From: Actinomycetes bacterium
Lineage (GTDB): Bacteria; Actinomycetota; Thermoleophilia; RBG-16-64-13
DNA: 64,000 nt
Reading direction: 5' to 3'
Assembly (NCBI GenBank): GCA_024637035.1
Contig: JAGXFW010000033.1
Coordinates: forward strand, 1-64,000
Shown: one piece after another, positions 41,749 through 46,486 of the stretch
Layout of the letters: each line of letters begins with the position of its first letter
How positions within the stretch are numbered: the first letter of the stretch is position 1
Position numbers and translations under genes: made by a program
The notes under the pieces: model-generated
What the model saw: the letters and a program-made list of their open reading frames with translations, nothing else
What the model was told of the DNA's origin: nothing
Database searches by the model: none

Positions 41749-42156
41749 TCAGCCGATCTTCTCCCCAGCGTTCGGACCCGCGCCCATGTCCCACACAGAA
41801 TCGACGAGGATGCGCACTACGTAGGTCACCGGGGGCAGACCCGCCTGCAGCTCCGCCATCTGAGCCGTGACCTTGTCGAACAGCTCGCCCGTCTGGATCA
41901 TGTCGGCAACGCCCTTGAGCTGTACCGCCACCTTCTTGTCGGCGGAATAGACGCCCACGGCGACGCGGCTGTTGGACAGAAGGTTGTCACGAGTCTTCTT
42001 CGAGAATAGATCGGCGAAGTACACGTGCTCGTCATCCAGGAGCGCGCCGCTGCCCTTGATTGCTACGTTCGGCCAACCGTCCGCTCCTATGCTGGACACC
42101 CACACGTTGTGTCCGCCGCGAAGAAGTTCCTGTACGTTCTCGGGGATCTGTGCCAT
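41749..42156 (-). CDS. Pyridoxamine 5'-phosphate oxidase-like FMN-binding protein
   Basis: This 135-residue protein has the split-barrel flavin fold of the PNPOx-like family (NVWVSSIGADGWPNVAIKGS, HVYFADLFSKKTRDNLLSN, VAVGVYSADKKVAVQLKGVA). It is of the short stand-alone type common in anaerobes. These bind FMN or related cofactors and act in poorly known redox reactions. It lies between the secreted-protein operon and the GTPase gene, all on one strand. Confidence 0.82.
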   Translation of the reverse strand: MAQIPENVQELLRGGHNVWVSSIGADGWPNVAIKGSGALLDDEHVYFADLFSKKTRDNLLSNSRVAVGVYSADKKVAVQLKGVADMIQTGELFDKVTAQMAELQAGLPPVTYVVRILVDSVWDMGAGPNAGEKIG

Positions 42157-42204: not shown

Positions 42205-43230
42205 TCAGTGGGGCAGAACCCGTGCGATCTCGGCAATGTGCTCCGGGTGGGAGATGAACACGAGGCGATCGACAACCTCTTCCCGCGGAGAAGGCCCCGT
42301 GTAGGGCTCGATAGTCCATTTCCCATTAACCAGGCTGAACAACCATGGCTCACCCGCGAACTTCACGATTCCCTTGCCGCGCACCACACGCTCGGGGAGT
42401 TCGCCGAGCCAGGCGCGCAGATGGTCCTGTGACTCCCAGGATCCTTCGACGACCCACGAGAGGAGGCGGTCGGGTGGTGTGACCTGGGCGGTCTCGTCGG
42501 TGAGGAGGTCGTCGATGTAGGACTCGAGCTCCCGCTCGCTCATCGCGGCCGGCGGCACCTTGTCCGCCTCCTCGCCTTCCTCAGAGTCTGCGTCGAGGCC
42601 GGACGAGCCGTCGCTTTCGGCCAATTCCCGCAGCCCGCCCTCACGGAAGAGCCCTTCGAAGGACACGTCCGCGTACACAGCCTCGTAGAAGCGAGGCTCG
42701 GGGTTCAACTCGCGCACGATCTCCTTGATGCGCTCGACCGTCTCCGGCTCAACCAGATCGACCTTGTTGATGATGAACACGTCTGAGGCAGCCAGCTGCT
42801 TCTCGATCGCGAGGAACGATTCGTACGTGTCGAGGAAGTTGGCGGCATCGACCAGGCAGAACTTGTCGCGCAGTCGGAAGGCGTCGCCGAAGATGGGAAG
42901 CTTGAGGTCGCGGCCGAGGTCGCTGGGATTGGCCACCCCCGTGGTCTCGATCAGCATGATGTCGGGACGCACGGTATGAGCGATCTCGTGAAGCGCTTTG
43001 ATGAAGTCGGTCTTCACGCAGGCGCAGAAGATGGAGCCCTTGCTGATCTCGATCATGTCGAGATCCTCGCCCTCGACGAGCGTGCCGTCGAGCCCCATCT
43101 CGCCGAACTCGTTCATGAGTATCAGGAATCGAAGGTCCTCCGGTACCACCTTCACCAGGCGGTTGAGGAACGTGGTCTTGCCCGAACCGAGGAACCCCGA
43201 GATCAGGTAGACATCGACCTCATGCGCCAT
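42205..43230 (-). CDS. CobW/HypB/UreG-type G3E GTPase (metallochaperone)
   Basis: This 341-residue protein has Walker A GFLGSGKTTFLNRL, NEFGEMGLDG, the Walker B-like LIETTGVANP and NKVDLVEPE of G3E GTPases. The CXCC metal motif of COG0523 proteins is modified to CAC in GSIFCACVKTDF. An acidic linker (DSEEGEEADK) leads to a CobW C-terminal domain. G3E proteins deliver Ni, Co or Zn to enzymes or cofactors. The ATG at 43230 has GAGGAG ten bases upstream and overlaps the stop of a CxxC peptide gene, so the two are coupled. Confidence 0.88.
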   Translation of the reverse strand: MAHEVDVYLISGFLGSGKTTFLNRLVKVVPEDLRFLILMNEFGEMGLDGTLVEGEDLDMIEISKGSIFCACVKTDFIKALHEIAHTVRPDIMLIETTGVANPSDLGRDLKLPIFGDAFRLRDKFCLVDAANFLDTYESFLAIEKQLAASDVFIINKVDLVEPETVERIKEIVRELNPEPRFYEAVYADVSFEGLFREGGLRELAESDGSSGLDADSEEGEEADKVPPAAMSERELESYIDDLLTDETAQVTPPDRLLSWVVEGSWESQDHLRAWLGELPERVVRGKGIVKFAGEPWLFSLVNGKWTIEPYTGPSPREEVVDRLVFISHPEHIAEIARVLPH

Positions 43231-43333
43231 CGCCGTCACACTCCTCGGCGCGCCCTGACCCGCTCATCGCCCGAACATCGGCGATGAGGTCGATGCACGT
43301 CTTGCACGCTGAGCCCGGAACCAGTGCCAACAT
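43220..43333 (-). CDS. 37-residue CxxC peptide coupled to the G3E GTPase
   Basis: The frame starts at an ATG (43333) with a perfect GGGAGGT sequence six bases upstream and runs 37 codons to a TGA that overlaps the GTPase start. The peptide has a CKTC motif (GSACKTCIDLIADVRAM), a short helix and a final Cys in AEECDGDGA. The strong ribosome site, the extended -10 TATGAT about 25 bases upstream (43365-43370), and the overlap with the next gene argue that it is translated. I know no family for it. A metal-binding partner of the GTPase is a reasonable guess. Confidence 0.6.
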   Translation of the reverse strand: MLALVPGSACKTCIDLIADVRAMSGSGRAEECDGDGA

Positions 43334-43361
43334 CGTCCACCTCCCACGTGGGCTTCACTAC

Positions 43362-43375
43362 CGATATCATAGCAA
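43362..43375 (-). promoter_or_regulatory. Extended -10 promoter of the peptide-GTPase operon
   Basis: On the minus strand TGCTATGAT forms an extended -10 about 30 bases before the peptide start. No good -35 is seen, as is common with extended -10 promoters. Confidence 0.5.
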
Positions 43376-43943: not shown

Positions 43944-44384
43944 GTGGGGGAACTGTGCTGGGAGATCGTAGGAGACGGCGGTCATGGTGACCGTGGTTGC
44001 CGGTCGTGCCCCGCATACCTGACCGGCTCCGACTGTTGGGAAGTGAAAGGCACCCCCTGCTCGTGCAATCCGGCCATCTGCATCCTCATCGAATGCCCCG
44101 TCTACCTCGTGCATAAGGCTGAGATCGAGAGTCGCCTTGCCCACGAAGACCTCGAGACCATGCTGCGCGCAGTCGAGCGCGTCGCCTCGGGTCAGTGCTG
44201 GGAGATCGAGGAGTGCACCGAAGCGGTGAGGGGCACCTGCCCGGCTCACGCAGAAGGCGCCCATTGTTGGGAACTCTCCTCACCCTGCCCCTGCAGCGGC
44301 GAAGACGGGTTCAGCCGTTGTCTCGTCTGCCCTATCAGGGTCTTCCACCAGCGCAACGCTTCTTCGCCGATCCGCAGCAGCTGA
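43944..44384 (+). CDS. Cys-rich two-CW domain protein, duplicated module
   Basis: This 146-residue protein has 18 cysteines and two similar halves. Each half has a CWEI start, a CPA segment, a second CWE, a PC-x-C motif and a final CP: residues 5-52 (CWEIVGDG, CPAYLTGSDCWEV, PCSCNPAICILIECPVY) and residues 85-133 (CWEIEECTE, CPAHAEGAHCWEL, PCPCSGEDG, CLVCPIRV). The pattern fits the two-CW domain family of unknown function found in anaerobes. Metal or Fe-S binding is likely. It ends 52 bases before the ArsR gene. Confidence 0.75.
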   Translation: MGELCWEIVGDGGHGDRGCRSCPAYLTGSDCWEVKGTPCSCNPAICILIECPVYLVHKAEIESRLAHEDLETMLRAVERVASGQCWEIEECTEAVRGTCPAHAEGAHCWELSSPCPCSGEDGFSRCLVCPIRVFHQRNASSPIRSS

Positions 44385-44401: not shown

Positions 44402-44460
44402 TTGCGCACGCGGTATTCCTCGCGCATAATATATTCATGTATGTCGATACTTCCATACAT
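44402..44460 (+). promoter_or_regulatory. Promoter and operator of the arsR-selenoprotein operon
   Basis: TTGCGC (44402-44407) and TAATAT (44427-44432) are 19 bases apart and predict a start near 44438, almost at the ArsR ATG, so the mRNA may be leaderless. ATGTATG (44437-44443) and CATACAT (44454-44460) form an inverted repeat with a ten-base spacer over the start codon, a fitting ArsR autoregulation site. Confidence 0.6.
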
Positions 44461-44775
44461 AGCACCCGGACCGACGACCCGTCGGAGGCAATACACCTCG
44501 CGCGCCTCGGCCGGTTCTTCAAGGCTCTCAGCGAACCGACTCGGCTTCGGATAGCACTGGCACTCACCGAGGAATGTCGCCCCGTGAGTGACGTGGTGGC
44601 GGCCACCGGTCTTCCTCAGCCCCTCGTCTCTCACCATCTTCGCATCCTGCACGAGGCGGGCATCGCCAAGCCCGATCGACAGGGCAACCAGGTGTACTAC
44701 TGACTGCAACGCGCCGTGGTCCGGGAGGCCATCCGCGTAGCCGAGAAGGCCATCGAGTCGGGGACGGCGTCGTGA
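44437..44775 (+). CDS. ArsR-family regulator with an in-frame UGA near its end
   Basis: Residues 20-88 are a complete ArsR winged helix (ARLGRFFKALSEPTRLRIAL, then GLPQPLVSHHLRILHEAGI, DRQGNQVYY). A TGA follows as codon 89. The same frame continues for 23 codons (LQRAVVREAIRVAEKAIESG) that form a plausible C-terminal helix. It ends in a TGA overlapping the GTG of the next gene. A hairpin of six pairs (44716-44721/44727-44732) with loop CGGGA starts at +13 after the UGA. I annotate read-through as selenocysteine. The short form ending at 44703 is the alternative and would still hold the DNA-binding domain. Confidence 0.6.
44716..44732 (+). promoter_or_regulatory. Putative bacterial SECIS hairpin of arsR
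   Basis: GTGGTC pairs with GGCCAT (with G-U pairs) around CGGGA. The apical loop starts 19 bases after the UGA, within the usual window, and contains G residues. Confidence 0.45.
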
Positions 44776-46025
44776 GCGACGCACCGACGTCCGACGCGCC
44801 ACTCCACGAAGACGCCTCGGGAGGGCCGGCGCAGGGGGGCGCGGAGCCCGCAAACACACAGTCCTGCATCATCTGCGACAGCACGCTCGACTACCTGGAT
44901 TCGGCGGCCGCGCTCACCTGCACCGTCTGCGGGAGTGAGGGTCGGGGGCACGTCGTCTGCCCGCGGGGACACTACGTGTGCGAAGGCTGTCACGGAGCGA
45001 GCTTCATGGAGCGTCTCCCTGGTCTGCTCGACGCGGCCACCTCGTCCTCCCCGTTCGCGATCGCGGAGGACCTCATCGCCGAGACCGACCTCCCCATGCT
45101 CGGGTGCGAACACGCGCACGTGGCGGCGGGTGCCTTGATGCGGGCCCTGGAGAACGCCGGTGTGGCAGGAGTCACCGCCGCCCACAGGGCTGAAGTGCTG
45201 GAGAGGACGGCCCGCCAGGCGGTGAGCGCGTACTGCGGATTGAGTGGCGTGTGCGGGGTCGTGCCTGCCCTGGGAGCCTGCTACAGCGTGCTCGTGGGCG
45301 GTCAGTGCGGCAAAGGCCCGCAGACCAAGGCGGCCATGACCCTTGTCTCCCGCCTCGCGGCGGCCACGGCCGCCGAGGCACACCCGGGCTGCTGCAAAGC
45401 CTATGTGCGAGTCGGCCTCCGCGAAGCCACAGCCTTCCTGCAAGAGGAGTTGGACATCACCTTCGACGCGGCCGCGCCCGTGATCTGCGCCGACACGGAA
45501 CGCCACCCCCACGGGTGCCGAGGCGCGGAGTGCGCCTGGCACCCCGACCACGAGGAGACGCACATGAACGAACCCGATACGGCCGTGCCCACGGCCGGCG
45601 CGGCGTCGACTCTCGGCGGGACGGGCGGCACCGGACCCGCCGCAAAGGCGCGCTACGACGAGTTCTTCGAGCTCGCCTACGCCGACGGCGTCCTCGATCG
45701 CAAGACGAAGATCCTGGTGGCATTGGGGGCTTCACTGGCATCCGGCTGTGCTCCCTGAACTCAGTATTGCCTCTCGGTCGGGAGGCGACTCGGGGTGACG
45801 GACGAGGAGGTCGACGAGGTGCTCCACGCCGCGATGACCGTTGGAGCCACGCGCATGCAGGTGATGCTCTCGCAGGAGGTCGCGCAGCTCGCTCCGGCGG
45901 AGGGAACACCTTCCACGCCTTCTCCCGCCGCGACGGAAGACCCGCGCCCGAGCGTCGCGGCCGACCGAGCAGGGTCGCCCGGGTTCGCCGCCGCCGAGGT
46001 GGTCGAACAGGCGGGTGGTGGCTGA
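44772..46025 (+). CDS. DUF5714-AhpD (carboxymuconolactone decarboxylase-like) fusion selenoprotein
   Basis: The product has 417 residues if the TGA at 45756 (codon 329) is read as selenocysteine. Residues 30-270 form a Cys-rich DUF5714-type domain (CIICDSTLDYL, CTVCGSEGRGHVVCPRGHYV, CEGCHG, LGCEHAHVAAGALM). Residues 290-385 are AhpD/carboxymuconolactone-like (FELAYADGVLDRKTKILVAL). The redox motif reads SGCAP-U-TQYC, that is CxxU where relatives have CxxC. The frame goes on as LSVGRRLGVTDEEVDEVLHA, the normal AhpD continuation, which proves the TGA is internal. A SECIS-like hairpin follows. An ATG at 45564 with GAGGAG upstream could also start the AhpD part alone. Confidence 0.85.
45767..45788 (+). 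promoter_or_regulatory. Putative bacterial SECIS hairpin of the AhpD selenoprotein
   Basis: TTGCCTCTC pairs with GGGAGGCGA over nine positions (two G-U) around a GGTC loop. The loop starts 18 bases after the UGA. A GGUC-type apex resembles the well-known fdhF element. Confidence 0.75.
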
Positions 46026-46042
46026 ACAGGTTGAGAACCCGA

Positions 46043-46061
46043 CGACGCCGGTTCGGCGTCG
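46043..46061 (+). terminator. Hairpin between the two selenoprotein genes
   Basis: CGACGCCG pairs with CGGCGTCG around GTT, 18 bases behind the AhpD-type stop. No T-tract follows, so it may be an RNA-stability element rather than a terminator. Confidence 0.4.
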
Positions 46062-46177
46062 CAGACGGTCTCGGATACCACGGCTACCACGGATCGCCCG
46101 CCGCAGCCGGCATCTGGTTCCACGTGAAAGTAGAAGAGCGGCCCGTGGCGGCCGCCGCACAAGAGGAAAGGGGATCC

Positions 46178-46486
46178 ATGGACCAAGCAGACCAAGAAAG
46201 CCCGCACATCGACCTGATCTCCAAGGGTCCCTCGTGAGTGCTCTGCAATCTCGCCGTGAGCGCGATGGAAGACATACAGGAGGAGAGCCCAGGCCTGTTC
46301 ACGTTCTCGGTGGTTGATGCGTCCACCCGAGAGGGCGTGAAGTGCCTGCAAGAACTGCGACCGGAGGCCGGGCGTCAGATTCCCGTGCCCGGCGTGATGA
46401 TGAACGGAGCGATCATTTTCGACCGAATCCCCGACATGGAAGAGTTCGGGGAATGGCTCGAAGGGCAGACGACGCCCGGGGCCTGA
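46178..46486 (+). CDS. Thioredoxin/glutaredoxin-fold selenoprotein with UxxC motif
   Basis: The ATG at 46178 has AAAGGGG upstream. The frame meets a TGA at codon 20 and continues to 46486, giving 102 residues. The active site reads GPS-U-VLCN, a UxxC motif placed between the first strand (HIDLISKG) and the first helix (NLAVSAMEDIQEE). The second strand (FTFSVVDAS) and the cis-Pro region (IPVPGVMMNGAIIF) complete a thioredoxin fold. Without the Sec codon the fold would lack its first strand and active residue. An imperfect SECIS-like stem lies at 46248-46266. It is the third UGA gene in a row and probably acts with the AhpD-type partner. Confidence 0.8.
46248..46266 (+). promoter_or_regulatory. 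Putative bacterial SECIS hairpin of the thioredoxin-like selenoprotein
   Basis: ATC-T-CGC pairs with GCG-C-GAT with one mismatch around CGTGA. The loop starts 18 bases after the UGA. Confidence 0.5.

Follow-up and report, generated by a model that had tools for sequence, protein, structure and literature searches.

The window, a 64,000-nucleotide stretch of contig JAGXFW010000033.1 from an actinomycete genome, carries on its minus strand a gene for a COG0523 (G3E) GTPase and, immediately upstream, a 37-codon open frame encoding a CxxC peptide (Table 1). The GTPase matches PF02492 (1.8e-39) and PF07683 (7.7e-10); a GTG slightly further upstream, at 43239, is open as an alternative start. The ribosome site of the short frame ends 5 nt before the ATG, and the TGA of the frame (43222-43220) falls within the GTPase gene, giving an overlap of 11 nt from the likely GTPase start. 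An extended −10-like element lies further upstream; a scan with the sigma-70 consensus gave no match for a −35 partner and so no full promoter. The near-ideal promoter of the earlier note was thus too strong a description. Its strong ribosome site and its stop overlapping the GTPase start were both borne out, the first being kept in the sister species and the second recurring there and in L053, a more distant member of the family.

Table 1. Features of the GTPase locus and of the nearby plus-strand frames (window positions)
Feature	Position	Strand	Remarks
PNPOx_N-domain (flavin/F420 type) protein	41749-42156	minus	Downstream gene, kept in all five family relatives
COG0523 (G3E) GTPase, cobW + CobW_C	42205-43230	minus	SIFCAC instead of CXCC; likely start ATG 43230
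37-codon frame, MLALVPGSACKTCIDLIADVRAMSGSGRAEECDGDGA	43333-43220	minus	CKTC; probably what remains of a gene of the Thioredoxin_3/MTH895 type (CxxC-bearing N-terminal part + C-terminal codons)
Probable GTPase ribosome site, GAGGAG	43246-43241	minus	Inside the 3' end of the probable remnant; same sequence and 10-nt spacing in L052 and L053
Ribosome site of the 37-codon frame, GGAGGT	43344-43339	minus	Kept in the sister species
Extended −10-like element, TGcTATGAT	43374-43366	minus	Upstream of the 37-codon frame; kept in the sister species (L052)
Cys-rich 146-aa frame	43944-44384	plus	Repeated CWE.../CxxCP motifs; directly before the likely selenoprotein cluster
ArsR/SmtB-family regulator	44437-44772	plus	In-frame TGA at residue 89 (GNQVYY-U-LQRAVVREAIRVAEKAIESGTAS); possible selenocysteine-containing metalloregulator
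DUF5714/AhpD-like frame	44772-46025	plus	Related to selenoprotein MbdU (NF045648, E 2e-84); continues through TGA at residue 329 (SGCAP-U-TQYCLSVG)
Thioredoxin-like frame	46178-46486	plus	UVLC motif containing a TGA; relative of NF047660, a selenoprotein with a HUIPC motif

The sister species (genome G001, locus L052) has in the same slot a frame of the same length, with the same overlap and a CxxC, encoding MLAQVPGSACMKCGELIAGIQAVTGSGHVEERVGHGA. The two peptides align without an indel and share 22 of 37 residues (59% amino acid identity, E = 7e-8), while in the 45 nt preceding the ATG only two positions differ and 43 are identical. Because place, length and CxxC recur together with this leader match, the frame is more than a chance opening. 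Beyond the −10-like element the DNA of the two species is unrelated, and since the leader itself is kept, the operon probably starts there in both, with the 37-codon frame as its first cistron. A search of 60 related genomes with the 37-mer gave a significant match in the sister species only. Against Pfam and NCBIfam the peptide returned nothing relevant, lying below detection by every family model, including Thioredoxin_3 and TIGR00412; a Cdc6_lid match (E = 0.066) was set aside as noise.

The GTPase was then used to scan public genomes, which gave 71 loci of close relatives. In 37 of these a CxxC protein of ∼80 aa is encoded just upstream of the GTPase, its stop codon most commonly lying 3 bases short of the GTPase start. 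Four of the 37 belong to the window's family (G005, G010, G012 and G014, that is, L053, L055, L056 and L054, respectively), and the 33 others are mostly from Desulfobacterota. These four are all the other genomes of the family that have the GTPase, and in each the full-length gene lies directly upstream of it. The upstream proteins of two family relatives match Thioredoxin_3 (PF13192; E = 2.8e-16 and 4.4e-18), and the one full-length protein tried on NCBIfam matched TIGR00412, the MTH895/ArsE family (8e-20); a related solved structure is 1ILO. The association between a CxxC protein and this GTPase spans phyla and is both real and old. To this extent the coupling proposed in the earlier note stands, whereas a novel micropeptide is not supported, the 37-mer most probably being a deleted form found in one genus only. 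Upstream of the GTPase in relatives, a short CxxC frame occurs in the sister species only, and elsewhere there is either a full gene or none; the peptide frame is, in the strict sense, not conserved outside the genus in relatives that keep the GTPase.

The resemblance of the short frame to these genes lies at both of its ends. From the same start, the peptide aligns ungapped with the full-length proteins through the GSxCKxCxxL segment (approximately the first 16 residues), and C10 and C13, which form the CxxC after the first strand, are invariant in the alignment. The last codons of the frame match those of the full-length gene, and GAGGAG-N10-ATG is common to the window, the sister species and the full-length L053 gene, whose protein ends ...EERCGDGA with an 11-nt overlap into the GTPase, although this 3' similarity is partly forced by the GTPase coding sequence and ribosome site. 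Thus, in its start, its CxxC segment, its operon slot and its 3' overlap the 37-mer is like the MTH895/ArsE proteins (TIGR00412; PF13192; 1ILO) as represented by its full-length neighbours, but it has 37 rather than ∼80 residues. What is absent is the centre, some 45 codons, among them those for the Thr-Pro loop and for the strands and helix that follow it in the MTH895/ArsE type; this middle part was not found nearby in the window or in L052. Scored with a profile of the full-length proteins, the window peptide reached 7.8 bits, a value attained by one of 5000 shuffled versions of itself, and the sister peptide 9.0 bits, attained by none of its 5000; the two were the best of 719 small ORFs by profile score. 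Pairwise tblastn alone was not significant (E = 2.3), the homology resting on a short stretch.

We consider it probable that the frame is an MTH895/ArsE thioredoxin gene with an internal deletion, retained as a leader whose translation is coupled to that of the GTPase. An improbable account is that a leader peptide unrelated to thioredoxin arose de novo and controls the GTPase by coupling or attenuation, with a coincidental CxxC; the conserved leader and ribosome site, the GTPase overlap and the weak pairwise similarity would all be expected of it, but not the profile match, the equal distance from start to CxxC, or an operon slot and 11-nt overlap identical to those of L053.

The probable deletion can be placed on the GTPase tree. 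By maximum likelihood, the window and L052 form a pair (100/100) inside an actinobacterial clade of six rows (100/100), the other four of which carry the full thioredoxin gene, and full-length genes occur in deltaproteobacterial branches as well. The short form is thus confined to two species of the window's genus and nested within a full-length group, for which one shortening event in the ancestor of the genus would be the simplest account. Elsewhere in the window's genome there is a full-length paralogue (G000:C5:96363-96611), which adjoins a gene resembling a permease by eye and has close relatives in G001, G010 and G014.

Comparison of the two species suggests that the amino acid sequence is little constrained. 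For the peptide, dN = 0.229 and dS = 0.234, a ratio near 1 (bootstrap median 0.97, with a wide interval of 0.38-3.2 from the one species pair), whereas the GTPase gives 0.25 and a pair of full-length thioredoxins, L054/L055, gives 0.08. Unchanged residues number 22, against 23.8 ± 1.8 for randomly placed substitutions given no stop. Both CxxC cysteines are kept in both species, a result with a chance of 0.31 without selection, and one Cys codon has changed silently. Neither species has a stop or frameshift, and 58% of random simulations are also stop-free. Changes along the frame (3/30, 8/30, 8/30 and 3/21) are concentrated in the middle. As an indication from two species, purifying selection on the amino acids is not detectable, and the pattern is consistent with two ends that are constrained as DNA (the initiation region, and the GTPase ribosome site and start) and a protein that is little constrained. 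A ratio near 1 would also be expected if the frame were open by chance and never translated, overlying a promoter and 5' leader that are themselves conserved; this seems highly improbable, as a GGAGGT 5 nt from the ATG is kept in both species and the frame and its length are the same, without an indel.

A related question is whether the short peptide could itself work, as a miniaturised CxxC protein whose thiol pair gives metal or electrons to the SIFCAC site of the co-translated GTPase. Its ancestry in a GTPase-linked thiol protein, the CxxC of both species and a frame that is open and well initiated in both would suit such a role, and if it were true the peptide would be a minimal relic keeping the function of its full-length thioredoxin ancestor. 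We regard it as unlikely, given the lack of detectable amino acid constraint, the loss of the Thr-Pro loop and most strands, and the fact that relatives whose GTPase shares the motif either use a protein of full length or have no such gene directly upstream. An AlphaFold2 model of the peptide, built with the family alignment, is of low confidence (mean pLDDT 59) and shows one helix and no strands; a thioredoxin-like fold is therefore not predicted.

The motif of the GTPase also bears on this role. Haas et al. (2009; PMC2770081) state a CXCC motif for COG0523. By sequence the window GTPase resembles E. coli YjiA (1NIJ; E = 2e-13 over residues 5-200), but it has GSIFCAC where YjiA has GCICC. The earlier note read CAC as a missing ligand. 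The motif was confirmed and the inference was not: each of the 70 relatives whose motif is readable has IFC[VAI]C, and CAC as the mark of a degenerate GTPase was rejected, being subfamily-wide. CAC is common to relatives with an intact thioredoxin and relatives with none directly upstream, therefore nothing is missing from the window GTPase in particular; and since IFC[VAI]C is found also where the thioredoxin is intact, the peptide is no substitute for a lost ligand. A novel micropeptide that supplies one is unsupported, the linked protein ordinarily being a full-length thioredoxin of the MTH895/ArsE type, and a metal-donor role for the 37-mer is likewise unsupported, though with two genomes to go on it keeps a low probability.

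The reading we prefer, an internally deleted gene kept as a coupled leader frame, suggests the following mechanism. Ancestrally, a thioredoxin-like gene of the MTH895/ArsE type would have stood in an operon with the COG0523 GTPase, the two being co-produced. In the ancestor of the genus, a deletion would have taken out ∼45 codons from the centre, and with them the strands and Thr-Pro loop on which the thioredoxin fold depends, a loss that the full-length paralogue on C5 may have made tolerable. Ribosomes recruited by the strong GGAGGT would read through the short frame and reach its stop inside the start of the GTPase gene, where restart would be aided by the GAGGAG inside the last codons of the remnant; the overlap thus points to translational coupling. 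The remnant would be selected mainly as DNA or RNA, namely as the beginning of the operon transcript, its ribosome site and the ribosome site of the GTPase. Its loading function would persist in the genus, and the peptide is probably made, probably does little and is a probable by-product.

The genome makes selenoproteins, and we considered the TGA of the peptide as a selenocysteine codon. This was rejected: the full-length L053 gene ends at the same place, and readthrough would traverse the GTPase. Separately, three plus-strand frames nearby (44437-46486) form a likely selenoprotein cluster (Table 1), and contig C26 of this genome carries both SelB and tRNA-Sec. The Cys-rich frame before the cluster has no Pfam or NCBIfam match.

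The constant neighbour of the GTPase in the actinobacterial clade is the PNPOx-type flavoprotein. Across the 71 loci, neighbours include URO-D methyltransferase-like (54 loci), RACo (36), B12-binding (15) and MtrH (4) proteins, which occur in Desulfobacterota and Desulfotomaculia loci; the window's own GTPase has none of them. COG0523 subfamily 13 lies beside corrinoid-dependent methyltransferase genes (Haas et al. 2009; PMC2770081), and by gene neighbourhood alone the Desulfobacterota and Desulfotomaculia relatives, with their corrinoid methyltransferase-type neighbours, are like it. A difference is that the 70 relatives with a legible motif have IFC[VAI]C, against the CXCC given in that paper for COG0523; the window gene also differs, in lacking such neighbours. 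RACo is present in all 18 family genomes examined, making any tracking between it and the GTPase uninformative. A literature search for a thioredoxin-GTPase-corrinoid grouping found none described beyond subfamily 13. The neighbourhood suggests that the ancestral pair may serve corrinoid methyltransferases, in their maturation or redox maintenance. In Desulfofundulus australicus (L060, 1060-2206 and 4689-4985, plus strand), four consecutive small thioredoxin-like genes lie near the GTPase, and directly upstream of the GTPase is an uncharacterised CPYCGK...CRFC protein, which 35 of the 71 loci encode and for which Pfam and NCBIfam gave no match.

What had been suspected to be a new micropeptide is thus probably a gene-shrinkage event that can be placed in one genus. 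It also cautions that, even where the ribosome site is perfect, a short frame overlapping the next gene can be a relic retained for the sake of that gene's translation. The analysis exposed a wider pairing: the GTPases of a distinct COG0523 subgroup, marked by SIFC[VAI]C, have a CxxC thioredoxin-like protein encoded directly upstream, and corrinoid methyltransferase genes often lie alongside. It is this full-length thioredoxin-GTPase pair, rather than the 37-mer, that merits study.
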